In this document: positions 1,197-21,661 of the stretch, in pieces
Layout of the letters: each line of letters begins with the position of its first letter
Numbering within the stretch: the first letter of the stretch is position 1
Assembly: GCA_031276485.1 (NCBI GenBank)
Contig: JAISMY010000074.1
Coordinates: 1-38,875 of the forward strand
Source: Desulfovibrio sp.
GTDB lineage: Bacteria; Desulfobacterota; Desulfovibrionia; Desulfovibrionales; Desulfovibrionaceae
DNA length: 38,875 nt
Direction of reading: 5' to 3'
Program-made: the position numbers and the translations under genes
Notes under the pieces: generated by a model
Told to the model about the DNA's origin: nothing
What the model saw: the letters and a program-made list of their open reading frames with translations, nothing else
Databases searched by the model: none

Positions 1197-3294
1197 GGTC
1201 CGATTTACCCCGCAGTTCAAATGAGGCCGACGAGTTGCCTATTGAAACCGTAACCGTTATTAGGCCGTCAGGCGGCAGATCAATGGAATCAAGCCGCAGC
1301 AGAAATTCACCCTGTCCGTCCGTGACGTATGATTTGGAAGAAACGCCCGCAGACGCGGAACGCACGGAAACAATTTCGTCGACGAAAGCGCCGAGCGCGG
1401 CGACAAAACGGGAGACAAATCCATCGGGCGGGCGGGGATTGTGTTGCGTCAGCCAGTTCCCGCCGGTATTCACAGTCACCGCTTGCCCGGCGGCGTATCC
1501 TCCAAATGTCTTCAAAACCCGGAAACGGAATCCGTTGTCGCCGTCCCCGCCGAGGTATTCTATCTGATAGTCCTGTTTGGCCCGGTACTCCAGAATGATG
1601 CGGTTTTCCCTGTCCACAAACTCATGCCGGGATCCCGATACCGACCTCATCTCGGCCACTTTGGAGTGCCTTGTCTGCTCATCCCACGGCATATCGAAGC
1701 GGTAGGTGAAGTGCAGGCCGTACTCTGTTTCCGTTTCCCCGCGTTGCGTAGTCCGTTGCGTCAGGAAGCCGGACACGAGAGGTATAGGCGTGTACTCCAG
1801 ACCGTAGGACCAGACTTTCGGATTTTTTTCGAGCCGGGAGGGCCCGAACATGCCGACATGCTCTCCGAACCATTGCGTAAAGGATCCCGTAAGCGCCATG
1901 TTGCGATAGAAGGGCAGGTAAGCCTTGAGGCGGGTGTCCCATCCCGCGGCGGGGCGCTCCTCGACAAAACGTCTGTCGAAGTCGTAGGAGCCTTTCCAGC
2001 CGGAGAGCGGGAAATAGGAGTTGGAGGACAGGCGCAACCAGTCGAACTGCGCTTCGACGCCTACGCCGCCGCGGCGATGCGCACGAGTGAAGTCGATGTC
2101 GTAGAACGCGTTGTAGCCGATCATCCAGTCCCCGGCGTCCATTTCATCCTTGGCGGCCGGAAACCAGCGCTCCCCCAGGCCGAAGTTGCCGATCCAGCGA
2201 TCCTGCCCGTCCGCGTTCCCTCCGGAGACATCCATGCTGCGCAACCCGGCCTGTGCAAAGATCGTGGTGTACCGTCCGTCATACAACGGCAGCAACACGT
2301 CGCCGTCGCCCCGGAGTTTCCCGTTATCGTCAAGGGTATAGTTCAACCGAGCGCGGGCGCCGCGTATAAAAGAAGAGACGGCAGCTTCGCCTGCCGAGTT
2401 CAACGCGCCCATGCCCCAGGACAACACGCGGTCCTGCGCAGCCTGTGATGAAGAAAAAATGTCGACCTGCCGCGTATCGCTGCTCCGGCCGTCGCGCGAC
2501 GGGTCATAGCGGCCGGTCAGGGGGTCGTAGCCGATGGCGGACAGAGGTATATACCCGCCGAGATAGCTGTTCCCCAAGCCGTGTTGCGCATAGGCCGCCG
2601 CCCTCCGGCCTCCGTCCGACGGCCCGTCGTTTTCCGCGCCGCCCGCTTTGCGCACTGTGCCGTCCTGATGAAAACCCGCCCCCTCATCCCTGTTCGGGAA
2701 CGTGGGGGCCGGAACCCCTAAAATCGACGCTCCCAGGTCCATCAGCGAGTACGACAGGGGCCGGGGGGCGCTGCCGTTTGAGCTTCCCGCCGGCAGGAAA
2801 GGAACCAGCGCTTTGAGCAACGACGAAGCGTCATGCTCTACATTGTGAGGCGAAGTCGGGGGAACGGCAGCGACCGCGTTTGTCCGCCCGGTAAGGCCGG
2901 CGGCAGGCGTTGCGTCCTCTGGAGAAAACGCGGAGGATGCGCCGCGTCCGGCTTTCGCTCCGTTTGCCGCAGATCCGCGCGTTGCGCGCGCCTCGGCGTC
3001 TTTATTGGCCGCTTCGTCGACGTCCGCCTTGCGTTCGGGGCTGTTCAGACGCCGTTGGACAAATTCGGCGCCAAGTCCCGCCGCATCGGCCAACACGAAA
3101 GATTTGGGCGGCAGCGCTGCATCTCGGCCGCGGGAGGGAAGCGGAGGAAGGGCGACGTTGCCGTAGGCGCTTGCTTCAGGCCGGGGAGACGCGATTGCGC
3201 CTGCCGCCTGCGGGGGCAGGACAAGGAGCAGGATCAAGAGGTATGATATACATGCCCGAAATCCTGGATGTGAATTGCCGCGCAACACGCTCAC
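1..3294 (-). CDS. Inverse autotransporter adhesin (intimin/invasin type), 3' end outside the window
   Basis: The reading frame is open from a GTG at 3294 to the left edge (1098 codons visible). The N-terminus is a signal peptide (hydrophobic ISYLLILLLVLPP, then QAAGA), so the protein should be exported and placed in the outer membrane. Residues about 335-575 match the inverse autotransporter beta-barrel: GYNAFYDIDFTRAHRRGGVG, LRLSSNSYFPLSGWK, AGWDTRLKAYLP, EKNPKVWSYGLEYTPIPL, VAEMRSVSGSRHEFVDREN and IILEYR. From about residue 700 come at least five bacterial Ig-like (Big_1 type) repeats that form the surface stalk; any terminal binding domain lies beyond the edge. Residues 45-330 are a low-complexity linker and no LysM motif was seen. 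GTG at 3288 or TTG at 3285 are alternative starts, and no good Shine-Dalgarno decides between them. Host-cell or surface adhesion is inferred from the family. Confidence 0.9.
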   Translation of the reverse strand, partial: MSVLRGNSHPGFRACISYLLILLLVLPPQAAGAIASPRPEASAYGNVALPPLPSRGRDAALPPKSFVLADAAGLGAEFVQRRLNSPERKADVDEAANKDAEARATRGSAANGAKAGRGASSAFSPEDATPAAGLTGRTNAVAAVPPTSPHNVEHDASSLLKALVPFLPAGSSNGSAPRPLSYSLMDLGASILGVPAPTFPNRDEGAGFHQDGTVRKAGGAENDGPSDGGRRAAAYAQHGLGNSYLGGYIPLSAIGYDPLTGRYDPSRDGRSSDTRQVDIFSSSQAAQDRVLSWGMGALNSAGEAAVSSFIRGARARLNYTLDDNGKLRGDGDVLLPLYDGRYTTIFAQAGLRSMDVSGGNADGQDRWIGNFGLGERWFPAAKDEMDAGDWMIGYNAFYDIDFTRAHRRGGVGVEAQFDWLRLSSNSYFPLSGWKGSYDFDRRFVEERPAAGWDTRLKAYLPFYRNMALTGSFTQWFGEHVGMFGPSRLEKNPKVWSYGLEYTPIPLVSGFLTQRTTQRGETETEYGLHFTYRFDMPWDEQTRHSKVAEMRSVSGSRHEFVDRENRIILEYRAKQDYQIEYLGGDGDNGFRFRVLKTFGGYAAGQAVTVNTGGNWLTQHNPRPPDGFVSRFVAALGAFVDEIVSVRSASAGVSSKSYVTDGQGEFLLRLDSIDLPPDGLITVTVSIGNSSASFELRGKSDPYKLEMNPATLVENTQTAVTFTVLRGGTPAAAGTSVTFTANDRFTGLPSSEQKTGSDGTIPVSGLTALASGAQTIHATVEGQAVSVSFTVAAGTYTLEPNTLTMTQGVPADPTFTLKMNGTVVPDKIVSFTANPNFKNLPATATTGTGGTFTITGLTAKAAGSQTIQVAVDSEKLNIAVTVTAGTYTLEMAPPSLVENIPTNVTFTVKQGGAAVGSGINVTFPSGSGDNAKFGNLPAGSTATSAAGTFTITGLTAKTAGTQTIQATVSGQAVTVEVTVTAGTYTLEMTPSTLTQGIPERVTFALKIGSVPTAGKSVSFTANDNFIGLPETATTNVDGQFAISSLTAKTAGTQTIQATVDTQPVTVSVAVTAGTYTLTMNPSALTQGIPERVTFALKIGS

Positions 3295-15036: not shown

Positions 15037-15822
15037 ATGCTTTACTCCGCACAACCCCCCCGCCCCTCGCTTGCCGCCGATGCCGGACGCCGGAAAGCCC
15101 GCGCAACGGCGCGGCTCGCCGTTTTCTTCATCCTGCTGTCCGCCGCCGCGCTGCCCGGCTGCGCCGGGACCGGCTCATACGCCGTGCCCGCCATGCCAGC
15201 AACGCCGACCCAGACGTATACTGAACCCGAGCAGCGCTACGCCAATCCGGGGTCCATATACAGCGCCGCCGAAAGCTCCGACCTCTATGCCGACAACCGC
15301 GCCCGCCGCGTGGGCGATATCGTTCTGATCAAAGTGGTGGAAAACGCCAAGTCCAAAAGCAAGGCCGACACAACAGCGGAAAAGGAAACAGAACACAATC
15401 TCGGCGTTGCAGCATTCTTCGGGCGTGAGAAAACCGGCATCGTGCCGGGCAGGGGCGGCTATCTGAGCGGCAGGACAGGTCCCGATCCGCTGCTCAAAAC
15501 ATCGACCTTATCCGGACTGAGCGCAACCGGCGAGACGAAACGCGAAAACTACGTCACCGCGACCATCGGCGCGCGCGTGCTTCAGGTGCTGCCGGGCGGA
15601 GTTCTGCAGGTGGCGGGAGCGCGCGAAGTCCGCGTTAACGACGAAACGCAGTACATGGTGGTCAGCGGTCTGGTCCGCGCCCAGGATGTGGGACCGGATA
15701 ACTCCGTGGACTCCACGCAACTGGCGGACTCCAAGGTGGAATACTACGGCAAGGGAATCCTGGCCGACAAACAGCGCCAGGGTTGGCTCTCCAGACTTCT
15801 GGATAATATCTGGCCGTTCTGA
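15037..15822 (+). CDS. flgH: Flagellar L-ring lipoprotein FlgH
   Basis: A 261-residue outer-membrane lipoprotein forming the L-ring. The N-terminus has a signal peptide with lipobox LPGC. Family motifs are SLYADNRARRVGDIVLIKVV-like (here DLYADNRARRVGDIVLI), a KTSTLSGLSATGET stretch, VTATIGARVLQVLPGGVLQV, GAREVRVNDETQYMVVSGLV and RAQDVGPDNSVDSTQLADSK, ending GWLSRLLDNIWPF. The start at 15037 follows AGAGAGGA. It is the last flagellar gene here; flgI and flgJ, which often follow, are absent and the DNA beyond is a degenerate copy of its own 3' end. Confidence 0.95.
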   Translation: MLYSAQPPRPSLAADAGRRKARATARLAVFFILLSAAALPGCAGTGSYAVPAMPATPTQTYTEPEQRYANPGSIYSAAESSDLYADNRARRVGDIVLIKVVENAKSKSKADTTAEKETEHNLGVAAFFGREKTGIVPGRGGYLSGRTGPDPLLKTSTLSGLSATGETKRENYVTATIGARVLQVLPGGVLQVAGAREVRVNDETQYMVVSGLVRAQDVGPDNSVDSTQLADSKVEYYGKGILADKQRQGWLSRLLDNIWPF

Positions 15823-16080
15823 CGGACTCCAGGGTGGAATACCAGGGAAACGCCGATTAAATGCGGAAAAGGCAAAGGACATCAAGATGGATTCTTCGCC
15901 TTCGCTTCGTTGCGGCTCAGAATGACCACGCTTTTGTCATTCTGAGCGCAGCGAAGAATCCATCCCCATGCCTTTCAAAAGAATAAATCAGCGATTCCCT
16001 ACGGCAAGGGAATCCCGGCCGACAAACAGCGCCGGGGCCGGATTTCCGGACTTACGGATAACATCCGGCCGTTCTGACGG
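15823..16080 (+). pseudogene. Degenerate tandem copy of the flgH 3' end, interrupted by an insertion
   Basis: GACTCCAGGGTGGAATAC at 15826-15843 repeats flgH 15728-15745, and TACGGCAAGGGAATCC...CTGACGG at about 16002-16080 repeats flgH 15747-15825 with a handful of substitutions. Together they form one approximately 100-bp tandem copy. The copy is split after GGAATAC by about 155 bp of unrelated DNA containing a long palindrome. The copy has no start and is not expected to be translated. Confidence 0.8.
15886..15964. mobile_element. Long palindromic MITE-like element
   Basis: Outer arms GATGGATTCTTCGC (15886-15899) and GCGAAGAATCCATC (15951-15964) and inner arms GCTCAGAATGAC (15915-15926) and GTCATTCTGAGC (15936-15947) are perfect complements around a CACGCTTTT loop. 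TCATTCTGAGCG...GAAGAATC motifs are, to my knowledge, a widespread class of bacterial intergenic palindromes. It has inserted into the duplicated flgH tail. Confidence 0.75.
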
Positions 16081-16089
16081 CGAAAGAAT

Positions 16090-16596
16090 TCACGCACGCA
16101 ACATTGCTCTTGCGATGTCGCGTATCTCGTTCCTCATCAGAACCCGTTGATTGGCGCTTCCTTTGAAGGCGGCATCCGGCGAGCGCAGTTCCTGCATGTA
16201 CGGGCCGTCCACAAGAATATCCGTCAAATGAAGCAGGCGGCGGATATCCTTGTCCCGCACCGCCGACCGGACGAGATCCTCGCAAAGGTATCCGGTATAG
16301 ACGACAAGGCTCTTTCCTGCCCGTTTTACCTGTTCCGACAGCACACAGGCCGCACGCGCCTGCAAAAACGGCTCTCCTCCGGAGAGGGTTAGGCCGGCCG
16401 TCAAGGGATTCGCCCCGAACTGCACAAGGATGTCGTCTGTATCGGCGTTGTAGCCTCCGGCCGGGTCATGCGTACCGGGGTTGTGGCATCCCCTGCAACG
16501 ATGCGGACAACCCTGCATAAACACCACAAAGCGCAGCCCCGGCCCGTCGACTATGGATTCCTCCACAATGCCGTTAAGGCGAATGCTGTGACCCAT
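16090..16596 (-). CDS. nrdG: Anaerobic ribonucleotide reductase activating enzyme (radical SAM)
   Basis: A 168-residue radical-SAM activase that abstracts hydrogen from a glycine of the reductase to make the glycyl radical. Motifs are SIVDGPGLRFVVFMQGCPHR with CRGCHNP (CX3CX2C cluster ligands), GLTLSGGEPFLQ and VYTGYLCEDL, then DILVDGPYMQEL. Length is typical. The start at 16596 is ATG with weak AGGG 8 bases upstream. It lies 123 bp downstream of the small glycyl-radical ORF and about 560 bp downstream of nrdD, same strand, forming nrdD - tail ORF - nrdG. Because the glycyl domain here is a separate peptide, that 58-residue peptide is its predicted substrate. Confidence 0.95.
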   Translation of the reverse strand: MGHSIRLNGIVEESIVDGPGLRFVVFMQGCPHRCRGCHNPGTHDPAGGYNADTDDILVQFGANPLTAGLTLSGGEPFLQARAACVLSEQVKRAGKSLVVYTGYLCEDLVRSAVRDKDIRRLLHLTDILVDGPYMQELRSPDAAFKGSANQRVLMRNEIRDIARAMLRA

Positions 16597-16719
16597 GCGT
16601 TACCCTGCGTGACGTTTTGCGCTGTGCTTCAGTCCGCGGCGCTTTTTACTCTGCGCGATGGTTCACGCCGATGTATATTTCGCTCCGGGCGGGTTTCGCT
16701 CTGCGGAGTGCTTTATGCT

Positions 16720-16896
16720 TTACTCCGTCGTATGCTTCACTCTGTCCCGTTCCTCGGCTCGTTTGGCGTTGTTGAAGCGGTTGAGCGTACCGACAAGATA
16801 TCCGGTTATTCTGCGGGTGCGCTCAAAAGCGATATTTTCACCGACAGTTTTGTGAACTTTTTTGAGTTTCGCCTGTTTTTGCGTGTCAAGCAGCAC
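16720..16896 (-). CDS. Free-standing glycyl-radical domain of class III ribonucleotide reductase, 58 aa
   Basis: A small gene missing from nrdD. The peptide starts VLLDTQKQAKLKKVHKTV (Lys-rich, about 22 residues) and then carries the full canonical C-terminal glycyl-radical segment of NrdD: FERTRRITGYLVGTLNRF, followed by NNAKRAEERDRVKHTTE. The radical glycine is predicted to be Gly32 in RITGY. The GTG start at 16896 has an excellent Shine-Dalgarno, AAGGAG with 6-base spacing, so it is translated independently of nrdD. It lies 258 bp after the nrdD stop and 123 bp before nrdG. The companion NrdD lacks this region, so the two chains probably assemble into one active enzyme, as GrcA/YfiD does with pyruvate formate-lyase. 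Identification of the motif is firm; function in trans is inference. Confidence 0.9.
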   Translation of the reverse strand: MLLDTQKQAKLKKVHKTVGENIAFERTRRITGYLVGTLNRFNNAKRAEERDRVKHTTE

Positions 16897-16993
16897 AGTT
16901 GTCTCCTTATACGGGTTGAAGTGTTGCGGTTGCGGTGCGGAGTCCGGAGCGATTCAACTTTGGCAGACTGCCCGGAGTTAAAAAGTTTACTTT

Positions 16994-17146
16994 TTAGAGC
17001 ATTTCAACTTTTAGATTACCCGTCAAGTTTTCTTCAGACTATGCCCGCTTCGGCGCTTAACCGCGCAAATAAATTGCGCTTGCGCCATCGCGGCGGGCGT
17101 CCGCTCACGCGTCCGCCTGAGCAATTTCAATGCGAAATTGCTCTAA
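16994..17146. mobile_element. MITE-like element with terminal inverted repeats between nrdD and its tail ORF
   Basis: TTAGAGCA (16994-17001) and TGCTCTAA (17139-17146) are perfect terminal inverted repeats, and the similarity extends inward (CATTTC against GAAATTG) with one gap. The 153-bp interior holds a perfect 10-bp hairpin, GAGCAATTTC/GAAATTGCTC at 17119-17143, and GCGCAA/TTGCGC near 17056-17073. No transposase and no clear target duplication are visible. Confidence 0.55.
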
Positions 17147-17154
17147 CGCATATA

Positions 17155-19413
17155 TCAATAGTGTTTAGGCAAAGGAACATCGGGGTAGATCCTCCGCAAG
17201 GAGTTGAGAAAGTCTACGTCGACGCCTTCGCCGTCCTTTCTGCCGCAACGCGGGCAGACATCGCGGATGACGCCCGTGTAGCCGCAGACCGGGTCGCGGT
17301 CAAGGGGATGGTTGATGGAACCGTAGCCTACCCCCTGCTCGTGCATGTACCGTATTACGGCTTCAAATGCCTCAAGGTTCTTGCTTGTATCCCCGTCCAG
17401 TTCGACGTAGGTGATGTGGCCGGCGTTGGTCAGGGCATGGTACGGCGCCTCCAGTTGAATTTTACGGAAGGCCTTTATGGGAAAATAGACGGGAATATGA
17501 AAGGAGTTGGTGTAGTATTCCCTGTCGGTCACGCCGGGCAATACGCCGTATTTTTTTCTGTCGACGACGACGAAGCGTCCGCTGAGACCTTCGGCTGGCG
17601 TGGCGATCAGCGTGAAGTTCAGTCCTTTTTCCAGCGACGCCTCGTCCGCGCGCCTGCGCATGTGCCCGACAATCTTCAGGCCCAGTTCCTGCGCTTCGTC
17701 GTCTTCGCCGTGATGTTTGCCGATCAGCGCCTTGAGCGCTTCCGCCAACCCGATAAAGCCGATGGTCAGCGTTCCGTGCCGGATGACTTCATCAATGCTG
17801 TCGTCCGGCCCGAGCTTGTCCGAGTCCAGCCAGATGCCTTGTCCCATGAGAAAGGGATAGTTGCGGACCTTCTTTGCTCCCTGTATTTTAAACCTGTGCA
17901 TGAGCTGGCGGAAAACAAGATCAATGATCTCGTCCAGCCGGGAGAAAAAATTGTCGACATTGCCTCCTGCCTCAATGCCGAGGCGCGGCAGGTTCACCGA
18001 CGTGAAACTTAGATTGCCGCGCCCGCATGTGACCTCGCGGGATCCGTCGTACACGTTGCCGATGACGCGGGTCCGGCAACCCATGTAGGCGACTTCGCTG
18101 TTGTAGTCGCCGGGTTTGTAATAGCGCAGGTTGAACGGCGCGTCCAGAAAGCTGAAATTTGGGAAAAGCCGTTTGGCTGAAGTCTCCAGCGCCGCCCGGA
18201 ACAGGTCGTAATTCGGGTCGCCGGAGTTGTAATTGACCCCTTCCTTGACTTTGAAGATCTGCACGGGGAAAATCGGCGTTTCCCCGTTGCCGAGGCCGGC
18301 CTGCGTTGCCAGGAGCAGGTTCTTGACAACCATGCGCCCTTCGGGGGAGGTATCCGTACCGTAATTGATGGAACTGAAGGGCACCTGCGCGCCGGCCCTG
18401 GAATTCATGGTGTTCAGGTTGTGAATGAGGGCTTCCATGGCTTGGTAGGTGCGCCGTTCCGTTGCGGCCGATGCTTCGGAAGCAGCGTAAGCATGCGCTT
18501 TGTGCAGCGGATCGCGATGTTCGGAATCGGGCGGGGTGTGCTGAAGCGTTCCCGGCGCTTCGGCGCCGCGCATGCGCAAATCGTCACCGGACAACAGCAG
18601 CCGGGCGGCCCGCTCTTCCGCCTGTTCACGGCTGATCCCTTCGGTTATCTGCAGGAAAGCGCGGAACGCCTTTTCATACTCTTTCCGGTAGGTCTTGCGC
18701 ACACCAAGGGCCATGGCGAAATCAAAATTGGGCAGGCTCTGTCCGCCGTGCATTTCGTTCTGATTGGCCTGAATAGCAATGCAGGCCAGCGCCGAGCTGC
18801 TTTCAACGGAATTGGGTTCCCGCAGGTGACCGTGGCCTGTTGAAAAACCGTTTTTGAACAGCGGGATCAGGTCGATCTGGCAGCAGGTTTCCGTGAGCAT
18901 GTAGAAATCTTTGTCGTGAATGTGGATATCTCCGCCTATATGCGCCGCCGAGGCATCTTTGGGAAGGATATGGTTGTCGATGAAAAATTTTGACCCTTCC
19001 GAACCGTACCTGAGCATGGTTCCCATAGCCGTGTCGCCGTCAATATTGGCATTCTCCCGTTTTATGTCCTCCTCAAGCGCCGGCGACCAAGTCAATTTTT
19101 TATAAATATCCATCAGATATGATTCGGCATTGCGGATCTTGGCGTGTTCGGCGCGGTAGAGAATATAGGCCTTTGCGGTTTTCGCGTAGCCGTAGCGGAT
19201 CAGGGCTTCCTCGACCACATCCTGAATTTCTTCAACGTGGCGCAAGTTCCGGGCCTGCAGCGCCCTGCACACTTTCTCCGTGACGAACAGCAGATCCGTG
19301 GAGGTCATTTCCTCCTCGCCCACGGCCTTGTTGGCCTTGCTGACGGCATTGAGTATCTTGGTGGAGTCGAAGGGAACGGGCGTCCCGTTGCGTTTGATGA
19401 TGGTTTCGAGCAT
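17155..19413 (-). CDS. nrdD: Anaerobic (class III) ribonucleoside-triphosphate reductase, body lacking the glycyl-radical domain
   Basis: A 752-residue catalytic chain reducing ribonucleotides to deoxyribonucleotides without oxygen or B12. Residues 1-95 are the ATP cone (IIKRNGTPVPFDSTKILNAV). The catalytic barrel shows DIHIHDKDFYMLTETCCQID, NQNEMHGGQSLPNFDFAMA, NTMNSRAGAQVPFSSINYGT, YMGCRTRVIGNVYDGSREV, GRGNLSFTSVNLPRLGIEA, PFLMGQGIWLDSDKLGP and ITYVELDGDTSKNLEAFEA. The zinc region is DRDPVCGYTG...CPRCGR (Cys710, 720, 723). Family members then continue into RRITGYLVG; here the chain ends SLRRIYPDVPLPKHY, so the radical glycine is absent. Residues about 275-320 look like a small insertion. 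The start at 19413 follows GAGG. A cobalamin riboswitch precedes it. Confidence 0.93.
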   Translation of the reverse strand: MLETIIKRNGTPVPFDSTKILNAVSKANKAVGEEEMTSTDLLFVTEKVCRALQARNLRHVEEIQDVVEEALIRYGYAKTAKAYILYRAEHAKIRNAESYLMDIYKKLTWSPALEEDIKRENANIDGDTAMGTMLRYGSEGSKFFIDNHILPKDASAAHIGGDIHIHDKDFYMLTETCCQIDLIPLFKNGFSTGHGHLREPNSVESSSALACIAIQANQNEMHGGQSLPNFDFAMALGVRKTYRKEYEKAFRAFLQITEGISREQAEERAARLLLSGDDLRMRGAEAPGTLQHTPPDSEHRDPLHKAHAYAASEASAATERRTYQAMEALIHNLNTMNSRAGAQVPFSSINYGTDTSPEGRMVVKNLLLATQAGLGNGETPIFPVQIFKVKEGVNYNSGDPNYDLFRAALETSAKRLFPNFSFLDAPFNLRYYKPGDYNSEVAYMGCRTRVIGNVYDGSREVTCGRGNLSFTSVNLPRLGIEAGGNVDNFFSRLDEIIDLVFRQLMHRFKIQGAKKVRNYPFLMGQGIWLDSDKLGPDDSIDEVIRHGTLTIGFIGLAEALKALIGKHHGEDDEAQELGLKIVGHMRRRADEASLEKGLNFTLIATPAEGLSGRFVVVDRKKYGVLPGVTDREYYTNSFHIPVYFPIKAFRKIQLEAPYHALTNAGHITYVELDGDTSKNLEAFEAVIRYMHEQGVGYGSINHPLDRDPVCGYTGVIRDVCPRCGRKDGEGVDVDFLNSLRRIYPDVPLPKHY

Positions 19414-19499
19414 AGCATCCTCGGCGTTGCCGGCAGAAGAAATTCCCCATCCGCGCGGGATGCGGGGGGAAGCGCGTTTATCCTCATCATCTCGCCCGC

Positions 19500-19663
19500 C
19501 GGCAAAGTCCGGTTGCCGTGAGGTCGTCTCCCGCGCTGTAAAGAAAAAGCAGGTCTTCCGGCTTGCCTCTTCTTTTCAGCCTTCGCGGCCGTGAGGCCGG
19601 TGGTATTCGGGGAAAAGAGGCGTTTTATACGGCTTACGGCGCCATGACCGCCCTTGTGGGCGC
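19500..19663 (-). promoter_or_regulatory. Cobalamin riboswitch in the nrdD leader
   Basis: On the minus strand the B12 box AAGCCGGAAGACCTGCT (19548-19564) matches the consensus rAGYCMGgAgaCCkGCC at 14 of 17 positions. Before it come CCACCGGCC...GCGAAGGC, the counterpart of the conserved CCACTG...GGGAAGGC, and a long pairing GCCTCTTTTC with GAAAAGAAGAGGC. The 5' part of the core is harder to fit by eye. Downstream, a CCCCGCATCC/GGATGGGG hairpin (about 19444-19468) close to the nrdD start could be the expression platform. Expected effect: B12 lowers expression of this B12-independent reductase. Confidence 0.75.
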
Positions 19664-19669
19664 CTTTAA

Positions 19670-19698
19670 AAAATATCTAAAGTTCGGCTCGCCGTCAA
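19670..19698 (-). promoter_or_regulatory. Candidate promoter of the nrdD leader
   Basis: Minus-strand TTGACG (19693-19698), 17-base spacer, TATTTT (19670-19675). Transcription would start just before the riboswitch. Confidence 0.45.
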
Positions 19699-19938
19699 AT
19701 TTTCCATCTCCCCGCAAAGATTGAACCTCTTCTATAACAATGCATGATACCAAGATTTTTTAATGAAAATTTTTTCGTTCCTGCTTCATCCCCCGCTCTC
19801 GCGGCCGCGCCGGCTGCGGCGTCTCGGCCTTGATTTTTTGCTGCCGTTGCTCCAGTATTCAGGACGAGCAGGCCTCATCAGCCTGCGCGAAAAAAAGAGG
19901 TCCGGCGCTGAACCGCGCCGACCCGGCCAAGTCAAGCC

Positions 19939-20409
19939 ATGTCCGTCACAAGAGTCTTTCCCGTTGCGGGCGCGTTACCCGTTGAATCCGATTCCGGCAG
20001 GGCCACCTCTCCGCTTTTTTTGTCGCCCGCGCAGGCTGGCTTTCCATCCCCCGCCGATGATTATGTAGACCGCAAGCTTGATCTTCACGAACATTTGGTG
20101 CGCAACAGCGTTTCCACCTTTTTTCTGCGCGTCTCGGGCGATTCCATGATCCGGGCGGGCATCCGGGACGGCGATCTTCTCGTGGCCGATCGCGCGCTGC
20201 GGCCCGTCAACGGTTGCGTGGTGGTTGCCGCCGTCGGCGGCGAATTGACGATCAAGCACTTTGTGCAACGGCGCGGACGCGCCCTGCTTGTTCCGGCCAA
20301 CGAGGCGTATCCGGAACTCGACGTAACCGAACGCGAAGATGCCGTGATCTGGGGAGTCGTGACCTATGCCGTCCACAAACTCGCCCCGTGCCCTTTGGGC
20401 GCTGGTTGA
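19939..20409 (+). CDS. umuD: UmuD-type SOS mutagenesis protein (LexA-like self-cleaving peptidase)
   Basis: A 156-residue protein of the LexA/UmuD peptidase family. The cleavage site is an Ala-Gly in SPAQAGFPSPADDY; the catalytic Ser lies in FLRVSGDSMIRAGIRDGDLL and the Lys in GELTIKHFV. RecA-stimulated self-cleavage yields UmuD', which partners with UmuC in translesion synthesis. The N-terminus before the site is about 34 residues, with no HTH, excluding LexA. No strong Shine-Dalgarno precedes ATG 19939. A weak TTGATT-17-CAGTAT promoter lies at 19830-19858, and I could not identify a LexA box. umuC begins 44 bp before its stop, in another frame. Confidence 0.93.
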   Translation: MSVTRVFPVAGALPVESDSGRATSPLFLSPAQAGFPSPADDYVDRKLDLHEHLVRNSVSTFFLRVSGDSMIRAGIRDGDLLVADRALRPVNGCVVVAAVGGELTIKHFVQRRGRALLVPANEAYPELDVTEREDAVIWGVVTYAVHKLAPCPLGAG

Positions 20410-21661
20410 CTGCAACAACTTTTTTGCCTCGTGCGAGCGGCTTTTCCGCCCGGATCTGGCAGACAGGCCCGTTGTGGTGTTGTCCAACAACGACGGCTGT
20501 ATTGTGGCGCGTTCCAATGAAGCCAAGGCCTTGGGCATAGGCATGGGGGAACCGGAGTTCAAAGTCAGGGAACTTCTGCGGATGCACGATGTCGCCGTTT
20601 TTTCATCCAACTACGTCTTGTACGGCGACATTTCCGCCCGCGTCATGCGGACGTTGGAGAGCATAGTTCCGGAAGTGGAGCAGTATTCCATTGACGAAGC
20701 CTTCGTGCCGTTGCGCGGGGCGCTCGCCGCCAATGCCTGCGAGATCGCGGACGAGATGTGGCGGCGCGTGCGCCGGTGGACGGGCATAGGGGTAGCGGTC
20801 GGCCTCGGCGCAAGCCGCACCTTGGCGAAAATTGCCTCGGAGAAGGCGAAAAAAGAAAACGGCGTCTTCCGTCTCGACGCCGGGCCGGAAACGGACGCAA
20901 TATTGGAGACAACTCCGGTAGGCGAGATCTGGGGTATCGGCAGAAAATCGGATCTGAAGCTGCGCTCGTACGACATCTACACGGCGCGGCAACTGCGTGA
21001 TGCGGACGGGCCGCTGGTCAGGAAACTGCTCGGCATAGCCGGGACGCATACGGCGCTTGAACTGCGCGGCATACCCTGCCTGGATGCCGTGAACGCGCCG
21101 ATGCCCAGGCGGAGCATGGTGTCTTCCCGGTCTTTCGGCGAAAAAGTTCGCGATAAACAATATCTAGCCGAGGCGCTTGCCATGCACGCCTCCTTTGCCG
21201 GAGAACGGCTGCGCAAGGAGCATCTGGAAGCAGGCGGACTGACCGTGCATATCCGGACATCGCGGCACGGAGCAGGAGAGTTTTACGACGAAACGGCTTC
21301 GGTAACGCTTGCCCGTCCTACGTCAGACACGCGAGACCTTATTCACGCGACGGTGCGGGGCCTGGAGGTAATTTTTCGACCCGGATGCGCGTACGCCAAA
21401 GCAGGCATAATACTGTACGACCTTGCCGCACCCGGCAGTCGTCCCGGCAACCTGCTTGATTGGGTGAACGCGGAAGCCGTCGACAAAAAGAGCGATGCCA
21501 GGCTGATGCGCGCTTTGGATGTGGTCAATCGGCGCTTCGGGCGCGGCATGCTTCGGTTTGCGGCGGAAGGAACACTTGAGGCCCCGTGGCGCGTCAAGAG
21601 CGGCAGGCGCTCGCCGAGAGCCACAACGGCCTGGGACGACCTGCCGGTGGTGAAATGCTGA
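20366..21661 (+). CDS. umuC: Y-family DNA polymerase UmuC (Pol V catalytic subunit)
   Basis: A 431-residue translesion polymerase. Motifs are WALVDCNNFFASCERLFRP with the first catalytic Asp, VVVLSNNDGCIVARSNEAKA, YGDISARVMRTLE, EQYSIDEAFV with the catalytic Asp-Glu, GIGVAVGLGASRTLAKIASE, IWGIGRKSDLKL and a C-terminal DUF4113-like tail ending WDDLPVVKC. It overlaps umuD by 44 bp, typical of coupled umuDC translation. The start at 20366 gives a 12-residue extension over the usual beginning, and no alternative start lies closer. A hairpin follows immediately after the stop. Confidence 0.95.
   Translation: MPSTNSPRALWALVDCNNFFASCERLFRPDLADRPVVVLSNNDGCIVARSNEAKALGIGMGEPEFKVRELLRMHDVAVFSSNYVLYGDISARVMRTLESIVPEVEQYSIDEAFVPLRGALAANACEIADEMWRRVRRWTGIGVAVGLGASRTLAKIASEKAKKENGVFRLDAGPETDAILETTPVGEIWGIGRKSDLKLRSYDIYTARQLRDADGPLVRKLLGIAGTHTALELRGIPCLDAVNAPMPRRSMVSSRSFGEKVRDKQYLAEALAMHASFAGERLRKEHLEAGGLTVHIRTSRHGAGEFYDETASVTLARPTSDTRDLIHATVRGLEVIFRPGCAYAKAGIILYDLAAPGSRPGNLLDWVNAEAVDKKSDARLMRALDVVNRRFGRGMLRFAAEGTLEAPWRVKSGRRSPRATTAWDDLPVVKC

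Follow-up and report, generated by a model that had tools for sequence, protein, structure and literature searches.

The window analysed here, a stretch of 38,875 nucleotides comprising positions 1 to 38,875 of contig JAISMY010000074.1 (Desulfovibrio sp., GenBank assembly GCA_031276485.1), carries on its minus strand a locus for a class III ribonucleotide reductase (RNR), an enzyme usually presented as one catalytic chain with a separate activase. At this locus nrdD, encoding the catalytic chain (hereafter the body), ends just past the zinc site, and the glycyl-radical motif lies in a small gene of its own (the tail), which is followed by the activase gene nrdG; we read the arrangement as a probable two-chain class III RNR. 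The observations that carry this reading are the separate genes, a conserved break point, retained catalytic residues, selection on both parts, the operon formed with nrdG, and the finding of the split NrdD as the only RNR in several genomes. The features of the locus are the following.

17155-19413, minus strand: nrdD body, 752 amino acids; matches positions 1-533 of the PF13597 profile
17239-17286, minus strand: putative zinc-site segment, body residues 710-725, CGYTGVIRDVCPRCGR, recognised by sequence and conserved cysteines
17158-17238, minus strand: additional body C-terminus past the zinc site, with a GEGV linker and a predicted helix (residues 733-742)
16897-17154, minus strand: gap between body and tail, 258 nucleotides, with six in-frame stops
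16903-16908, minus strand: AAGGAG, the Shine-Dalgarno sequence for the tail, separated by six bases from the GTG start
16720-16896, minus strand: tail gene with GTG start, encoding the separate 58-residue predicted glycyl-radical subunit; matches PF13597 positions 533-562
16789-16815, minus strand: glycyl-radical motif RRITGYLVG; codon 16801-16803 encodes Gly32, which by alignment corresponds to the radical glycine in Prevotella copri NrdD
16090-16596, minus strand: nrdG, radical-SAM activase; TIGR02491, Fer4_12 and Radical_SAM profiles
19531-19745, minus strand: degenerate cobalamin-riboswitch-like stretch upstream of nrdD, 21.8 bits

Catalytic body and predicted radical tail

A preliminary description of this stretch, made from its letters, had noted that nrdD stops after the zinc site without a radical motif, that the motif sits in a separate 58-residue open reading frame preceded by AAGGAG, and that nrdG adjoins; all three points are confirmed. 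The tail frame scored 28.4 and 31.3 bits against PF13597 (cut-off 26.2), while nrdG scored 119.9 bits against TIGR02491, slightly below the cut-off of 126.1, and passed those of Fer4_12 and Radical_SAM. The body, which runs out in SLRRIYPDVPLPKHY just past the zinc site, contains the catalytic barrel of class III-type RNRs and, at its N-terminus, an ATP-cone (PF03477, 71.3 bits), a domain that many but not all class III enzymes have. Its finger-loop cysteine lies in an MGCR motif (residues 444-447) that is present in all 97 distinct split bodies, and in an alignment of 41 split and fused sequences both catalytic cysteines (window Cys177 and Cys446) as well as Cys710, Cys720 and Cys723 of the zinc site are invariant; the position of window Cys211, which is not a catalytic one, holds alanine in 11 of the 41. 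The glycyl-radical motif is absent from the body chain and was found in the separate tail, all 96 distinct tails carrying RR[IV]TGYLV, a motif that was also used to find them. The counts of distinct sequences (97 bodies, 96 tails) omit the viral locus L249, whose "body" is a 1961-residue protein other than NrdD and which is likewise absent from the tree described below (L and G numbers are our handles for loci and genomes).

The closest solved NrdD by sequence is that of P. copri (8p23). The body aligns with residues 5-245 and 283-704 of its chain and the tail profile with residues 708-738, and the break therefore corresponds to a short linker between the zinc site and the radical loop. Window Cys177 aligns with P. 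copri Cys171, a position counted from the structure-sequence alignment, and tail Gly32 sits on the P. copri radical glycine, Gly711 in the numbering of the published account, as far as available to us (PMC11226230; the four-residue offset was counted here).

As regards annotation, the tail matches the NRDD family of Pfam and gave no match at E up to 0.1 to Gly_radical, the radical domain of pyruvate formate-lyase (PFL), and among PHROGs it is matched best by the end of the NrdD large subunit. Those NCBIfam models that extend to the tail score far under their cut-offs (for example, 45.9 bits versus 736), which leaves an annotation gap for genes of this kind.

Distribution, selection and origin of the split

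Among the 40 nearest genomes (own genome included), the split form was present in 10 of the 15 belonging to the genus and in 3 of the 9 further genomes representing the family. Body and tail were separate frames in 17 of 69 genomes drawn evenly from the family, again with the own genome, and these 17 are spread over 10 of 37 genera; G101, in which the body lies at a contig end and no tail was seen, was counted apart. The five genus members lacking the split (G005, G008-G011) have only an intact NrdD, of a different type ending in GYLRPV. A search of named genomes with the tail alignment confirmed at least 591 stretches, and the best 80 loci comprised 62 split forms, 9 fused forms and 9 tails whose fetched stretch contained no body, a sample biased towards split forms by its split-tail query. 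By their record titles these loci belong to Desulfovibrio and Mailhella drafts, many Bacilli, Oscillospiraceae and Lachnospiraceae, and isolates including Massiliimalia timonensis. Altogether the split recurs in 97 distinct bodies, two of them viral, with isolates among the sources, and chance is therefore excluded.

Both parts of the split gene are under purifying selection. The ratio of nonsynonymous to synonymous polymorphism (pN/pS), calculated for tails on codons free of the search motif, was 0.35 for the Desulfovibrio-type, 0.30 for Firmicutes, 0.42 for viral stand-alone and 0.50 for prophage tails; for the last 100 residues of the body, all codons counted, it was 0.24 and 0.29. A Shine-Dalgarno start precedes 93 of 96 split tails (35.4 in shuffled sequences) and 14 of 19 other stand-alone tails outside viral contigs (6.5 in shuffles). 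An NrdG-like frame follows within 1.5 kb downstream at 71 of 96 split loci and at 2 of 77 viral loci.

The preliminary description had left room for a split peculiar to this genome, for a sequencing error and for a second complete nrdD elsewhere. The split is shared by other members of the genus and of the family and occurs in a second phylum, with many gut Firmicutes among its bearers; its recurrence excludes a sequencing error, and the idea of a conserved split with purifying selection on both parts is borne out by the low pN/pS of tails and body ends. As for a second enzyme, the own genome (87% complete) yielded neither an intact NrdD nor an RNR of class I or II, and the outcome was the same for G013 (95%), G020 (100%), G161 (one contig, 97%), G267 (M. 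timonensis), G268 (with two split bodies) and G274, as well as for G003 and G007, which are less complete. Since several genomes, including that of an isolate, yielded no RNR other than the split NrdD, it is strongly implied that body and tail form an active enzyme.

In six of the 12 relatives, the split nrdD is preceded, at a distance of 23-158 nucleotides, by a cobalamin riboswitch that scores above the gathering score. Each of these six genomes has a PF02867 RNR, which is a B12-dependent enzyme in five (that of G002 is not named), whereas of the six relatives without the riboswitch four lack a PF02867 RNR and two have one (6/6 versus 2/6, Fisher p 0.06). The upstream stretch of the window, 19531-19745, stays below the gathering score of 31.5 bits and gave no match at E of 0.001 or lower in a search of the own genome; a degenerate stretch in a genome where no second RNR was seen is a weak signal that would fit riboswitch loss. 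The arrangement in the relatives follows the B12-riboswitch logic that was proposed for nrdDG of delta-proteobacteria in 2004 (PMC545781, available in part), and for D. vulgaris and Desulfuromonas nrdDG the same logic upstream of a class III RNR is described there, with no mention of a split nrdD in the available part.

A tree of 89 rows (62 split, 24 fused and 3 outgroup, picked partly by tail similarity and by thinning) requires nine changes between split and fused forms, with 9-10 in bootstraps and six forced by starred branches; a single origin of the split, which was considered, is not supported by these nine changes. The clade that contains the window has 23 rows, all of them split (support 100/100); within it Desulfovibrionaceae are nested among Firmicutes, and this nesting suggests horizontal transfer of the split form. 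Of 97 distinct split forms, 85 have a GExV-like linker twice, once ending the body and once opening the tail, whereas fused forms have a single short linker at the corresponding place; the two halves therefore overlap. Such an overlap would fit (i) partial duplication with complementary loss or (ii) acquisition of a stand-alone tail, after which the fused copy was truncated, and genomes that combine a fused NrdD with a stand-alone tail (G266, G271, G272 and G344) could represent an evolutionary intermediate.

Stand-alone tails in genomes, prophages and phages

Some genomes carry additional tails away from the body, as in the single-contig genome G161, which has four more. Among family genomes with NrdD (G101 omitted), extra tails were present in 3 of 17 with the split versus 0 of 49 others (Fisher p 0.015, the genomes not being independent). 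Neighbouring genes were called by taking the longest frame, often on the wrong strand; with this procedure, clear phage genes (integrase, baseplate and tail fibre, replication initiation, terminase) were recognised at 5 of 16 stand-alone loci (L189, L190, L193, L195 and L211) and suggestive ones at three more (L191, L200 and L204). Some genomic tails are the same as tails on contigs classed as viral in IMG/VR (L195 and L238, L200 and L268, L201 and L245).

A scan of viral contigs confirmed 370 tail stretches. In the best 80 of these loci, 79 tails could be sorted, and 75 stood alone within the fetched stretch, although at least four of the latter have a body elsewhere on the contig (L237, L278 and L284 about 2 kb off, L266 about 4 kb off). 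Forty whole viral records, which may be fragments, contained only a tail-sized match in 34 cases, body and tail in 5 and a fused NrdD in 1. In the cultured Eggerthella phage EL753P1, NrdD ends at the zinc site; downstream of this truncated NrdD, at about 5960-6130 of L308, lies a tail-like stretch whose frame is interrupted in the deposited record.

The extra tails resemble those of their hosts. The variable residue of the FERxRR motif equals that of the host tail in 21 of 23 cases from 13 genomes (9.6 expected), and in 17 of 19 (6.7 expected) when one genome of genus g53 is used; the comparison omits G263 and G268, where no tail adjoins the body in the locus, and the identical copy L194. The match shows that the tails follow host type, and common descent could also produce it.

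Several further tail-like genes were seen. At six loci (L066, L217, L218, L219, L220 and L302) the tail measures about 90-100 residues and includes an additional N-terminal domain of some 50 residues. Three of these loci are in the fused-NrdD genomes G266, G271 and G272, two in G273, a genome that yielded no NrdD body, and one on a viral contig; the extra domain of L217, L218, L219 and L302 passed no Pfam cut-off, L217 coming near YEATS (20.4 versus 22 bits). In G028, which has an intact NrdD, L045 encodes at 2896-3264 (+) a free-standing protein of 122 residues with cysteine pairs and a GYYRPV-type NrdD radical motif, possibly a second kind of autonomous NrdD radical domain, of another subtype. 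PF13597 matches over positions of about 510-562 with one internal TAG were found in related genomes, at C1:1224688-1224918 of G161, C1:26607-26837 of G274 and C40:67-294 of G195; these could be stand-alone tails following a zinc-site-like stretch, either as a remnant of the fused form or with a read-through codon. Tails were present and no NrdD body was found in G257 (98% complete) and G212 (76%), where tails may outlive the body or serve elsewhere.

Proposed mechanism, alternatives and known systems

In the mechanism that we propose, the 752-residue body would supply the ATP-cone, the catalytic barrel, the thiyl-radical cysteine and the zinc site, the 58-residue tail would dock at the usual place of the C-terminal glycyl-radical loop, and NrdG would charge the tail in trans with the glycyl radical, giving the active enzyme. 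We assign a probability of about 0.88 to such a natural two-chain class III RNR with a radical subunit assembled in trans. Oxygen cleaves glycyl-radical enzymes at the radical glycine, and because this glycine is located in the small chain, we hypothesise that an oxygen-damaged tail could be exchanged without remaking the body. Stand-alone tails of prophages and phages would likewise bring fresh radical subunits to the host enzyme in infection, as T4 Y06I does for PFL. The wider proposal, in which many gut anaerobes would keep the oxygen-vulnerable loop on a disposable small protein and phages would carry host-matched copies to maintain or take over the supply of DNA precursors, we hold at even odds.

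A number of observations weigh against this interpretation or parts of it: (i) the own genome is 87% complete, and another RNR may be missing from the assembly; (ii) in the predicted model of the fused Ruminococcus flavefaciens NrdD, residues 730-772 have a predicted local distance difference test score (pLDDT) below 50, a poor placement of the tail; (iii) none of the 16 genomes from other families of the order, among the 40 nearest, has the split form, and of 74 genomes drawn evenly across the class to which M. timonensis belongs (itself included) 68 had an NrdD match, nearly all of them intact, the split being a minority made up of M. timonensis, the centre genome of the draw, and perhaps G296; (iv) no recognised phage gene was present among the frames tried at 8 of the 16 stand-alone tail loci; (v) the Shine-Dalgarno signal is weaker in tails from viral contigs (54 of 77, versus 26.5 in shuffles); and (vi) the co-occurrence of fused NrdD and stand-alone tails in the four genomes named above means that tails need not indicate a split host.

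The alternative that survives best, although we regard it as unlikely, is a two-chain RNR in which the split is neutral, a ratchet-like fission with no role in replacement or phage supply. The patchy distribution, with about nine changes on the tree, is in keeping with neutrality, and stable all-split clades require no benefit; nevertheless, stand-alone tails have spread in viral contigs and match the host type, which suggests use, with the reservation already made for common descent. It is very improbable that the tail is solely a repair part for other oxygen-cleaved enzymes (a fused NrdD or another glycyl-radical enzyme) and that the truncated body is not an RNR at all: GrcA/YfiD does perform such a service for PFL, according to the accessible text of PMC8683613, and the same four genomes do combine stand-alone tails with a fused NrdD, but the body has kept its catalytic residues, makes an operon with tail and NrdG, and is accompanied by no other RNR found in several genomes.

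Still more improbable is a joined chain, produced from the two parts by translational bypass, stop read-through, an intron or a split intein. Body and tail are in register in the window, where the tail lies 86 codons past the body stop, and also in G247 and G253, which contradicts the statement of the preliminary description that no frame joins the parts; its conclusion that a frameshift is no explanation nevertheless stands, given the recurrence of the split. Against a joined chain, six further in-frame stops lie between body and tail in the window, the length of the gap, and hence the frame relation, differs among relatives, no intron family was found in 15800-19800 of the window, tails have ribosome sites of their own, and in some phages the tail is about 2 kb from the body. 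Moreover, it is established that an extension of about 25 residues, such as that of the body, is too short for half an intein, even if introns and inteins are known to interrupt nrdD in phages (PMC3653736, in its accessible part). Finally, a decayed or mis-assembled nrdD, with a frameshift or insertion in this genome only, can be dismissed despite the fragmented draft assembly (116 contigs) and the repeat-like sequence seen by eye in the body-tail gap, being refuted by the recurrence of the split in 97 distinct bodies, from isolates among others, together with purifying selection and Shine-Dalgarno starts.

In the NrdD enzymes of T4 (1h78) and S. thermophilus (9d3x), the glycyl-radical loop lies within the catalytic chain. 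A catalytic chain split in two polypeptides is reportedly found in the class II RNR of Pseudomonas aeruginosa, the genes of which are named NrdJa and NrdJb; that enzyme differs in belonging to another class and using no glycyl radical, and its break point lies elsewhere than that of the split NrdD. The P. copri NrdD likewise has its radical loop in the same chain according to the available portion of its description (PMC11226230), whereas here a gene of its own encodes the loop. Fragmented nrdD genes are on record from phages, namely the T4 intron, the phage c-st intein and the case of phiAS4 (PMC3653736); their interruptions are ascribed to introns, inteins or an unexplained cause, and the accessible part of that paper describes no conserved fission between zinc site and radical loop.

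Closest in kind are GrcA/YfiD and T4 Y06I, which are small, free-standing glycyl-radical proteins, as the tail is predicted to be, and one of which is phage-borne. They differ in that both mend a complete PFL after oxygen cleavage, whereas here the small protein is an NrdD-type one and its body partner at no stage has a radical loop of its own. YfiD and Y06I are the only validated spare parts, and others for further glycyl-radical enzymes were considered possible in 2021 (PMC8683613, accessible excerpt); whether such proteins exist beyond PFL, the question raised there, becomes testable with the system described here. Our search of the open-access literature returned no description of an NrdD split or of NrdD-type stand-alone tails, and the stand-alone tails in prophages and phages are new here. 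A stable and repeatedly evolved two-chain form would allow the radical loop to be added, removed, isotope-labelled or swapped with the catalytic body untouched. Should phages indeed provide this subunit, the gene, at about 55 codons, would be remarkably short for a phage metabolic gene, and its target would be an enzyme essential to the host.

The window contains several other features. In the interval between tail and nrdG (16597-16719), degenerate short repeats (GAGCGAAA / GAGTAAA) are visible by eye, and in several relatives, unlike in the window, the frames of tail and nrdG overlap. Beside the end of nrdG, an 82-nucleotide 3' end of a flgH-like gene is repeated at 87% identity (15744-15825 and 15999-16080). 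A UmuD-like peptidase and a UmuC-type polymerase with DUF4113 are encoded at 19939-21661, divergent from nrdD, and positions 1-1202 hold long tandem direct repeats of about 275 bases each, within a large frame that runs off the window.

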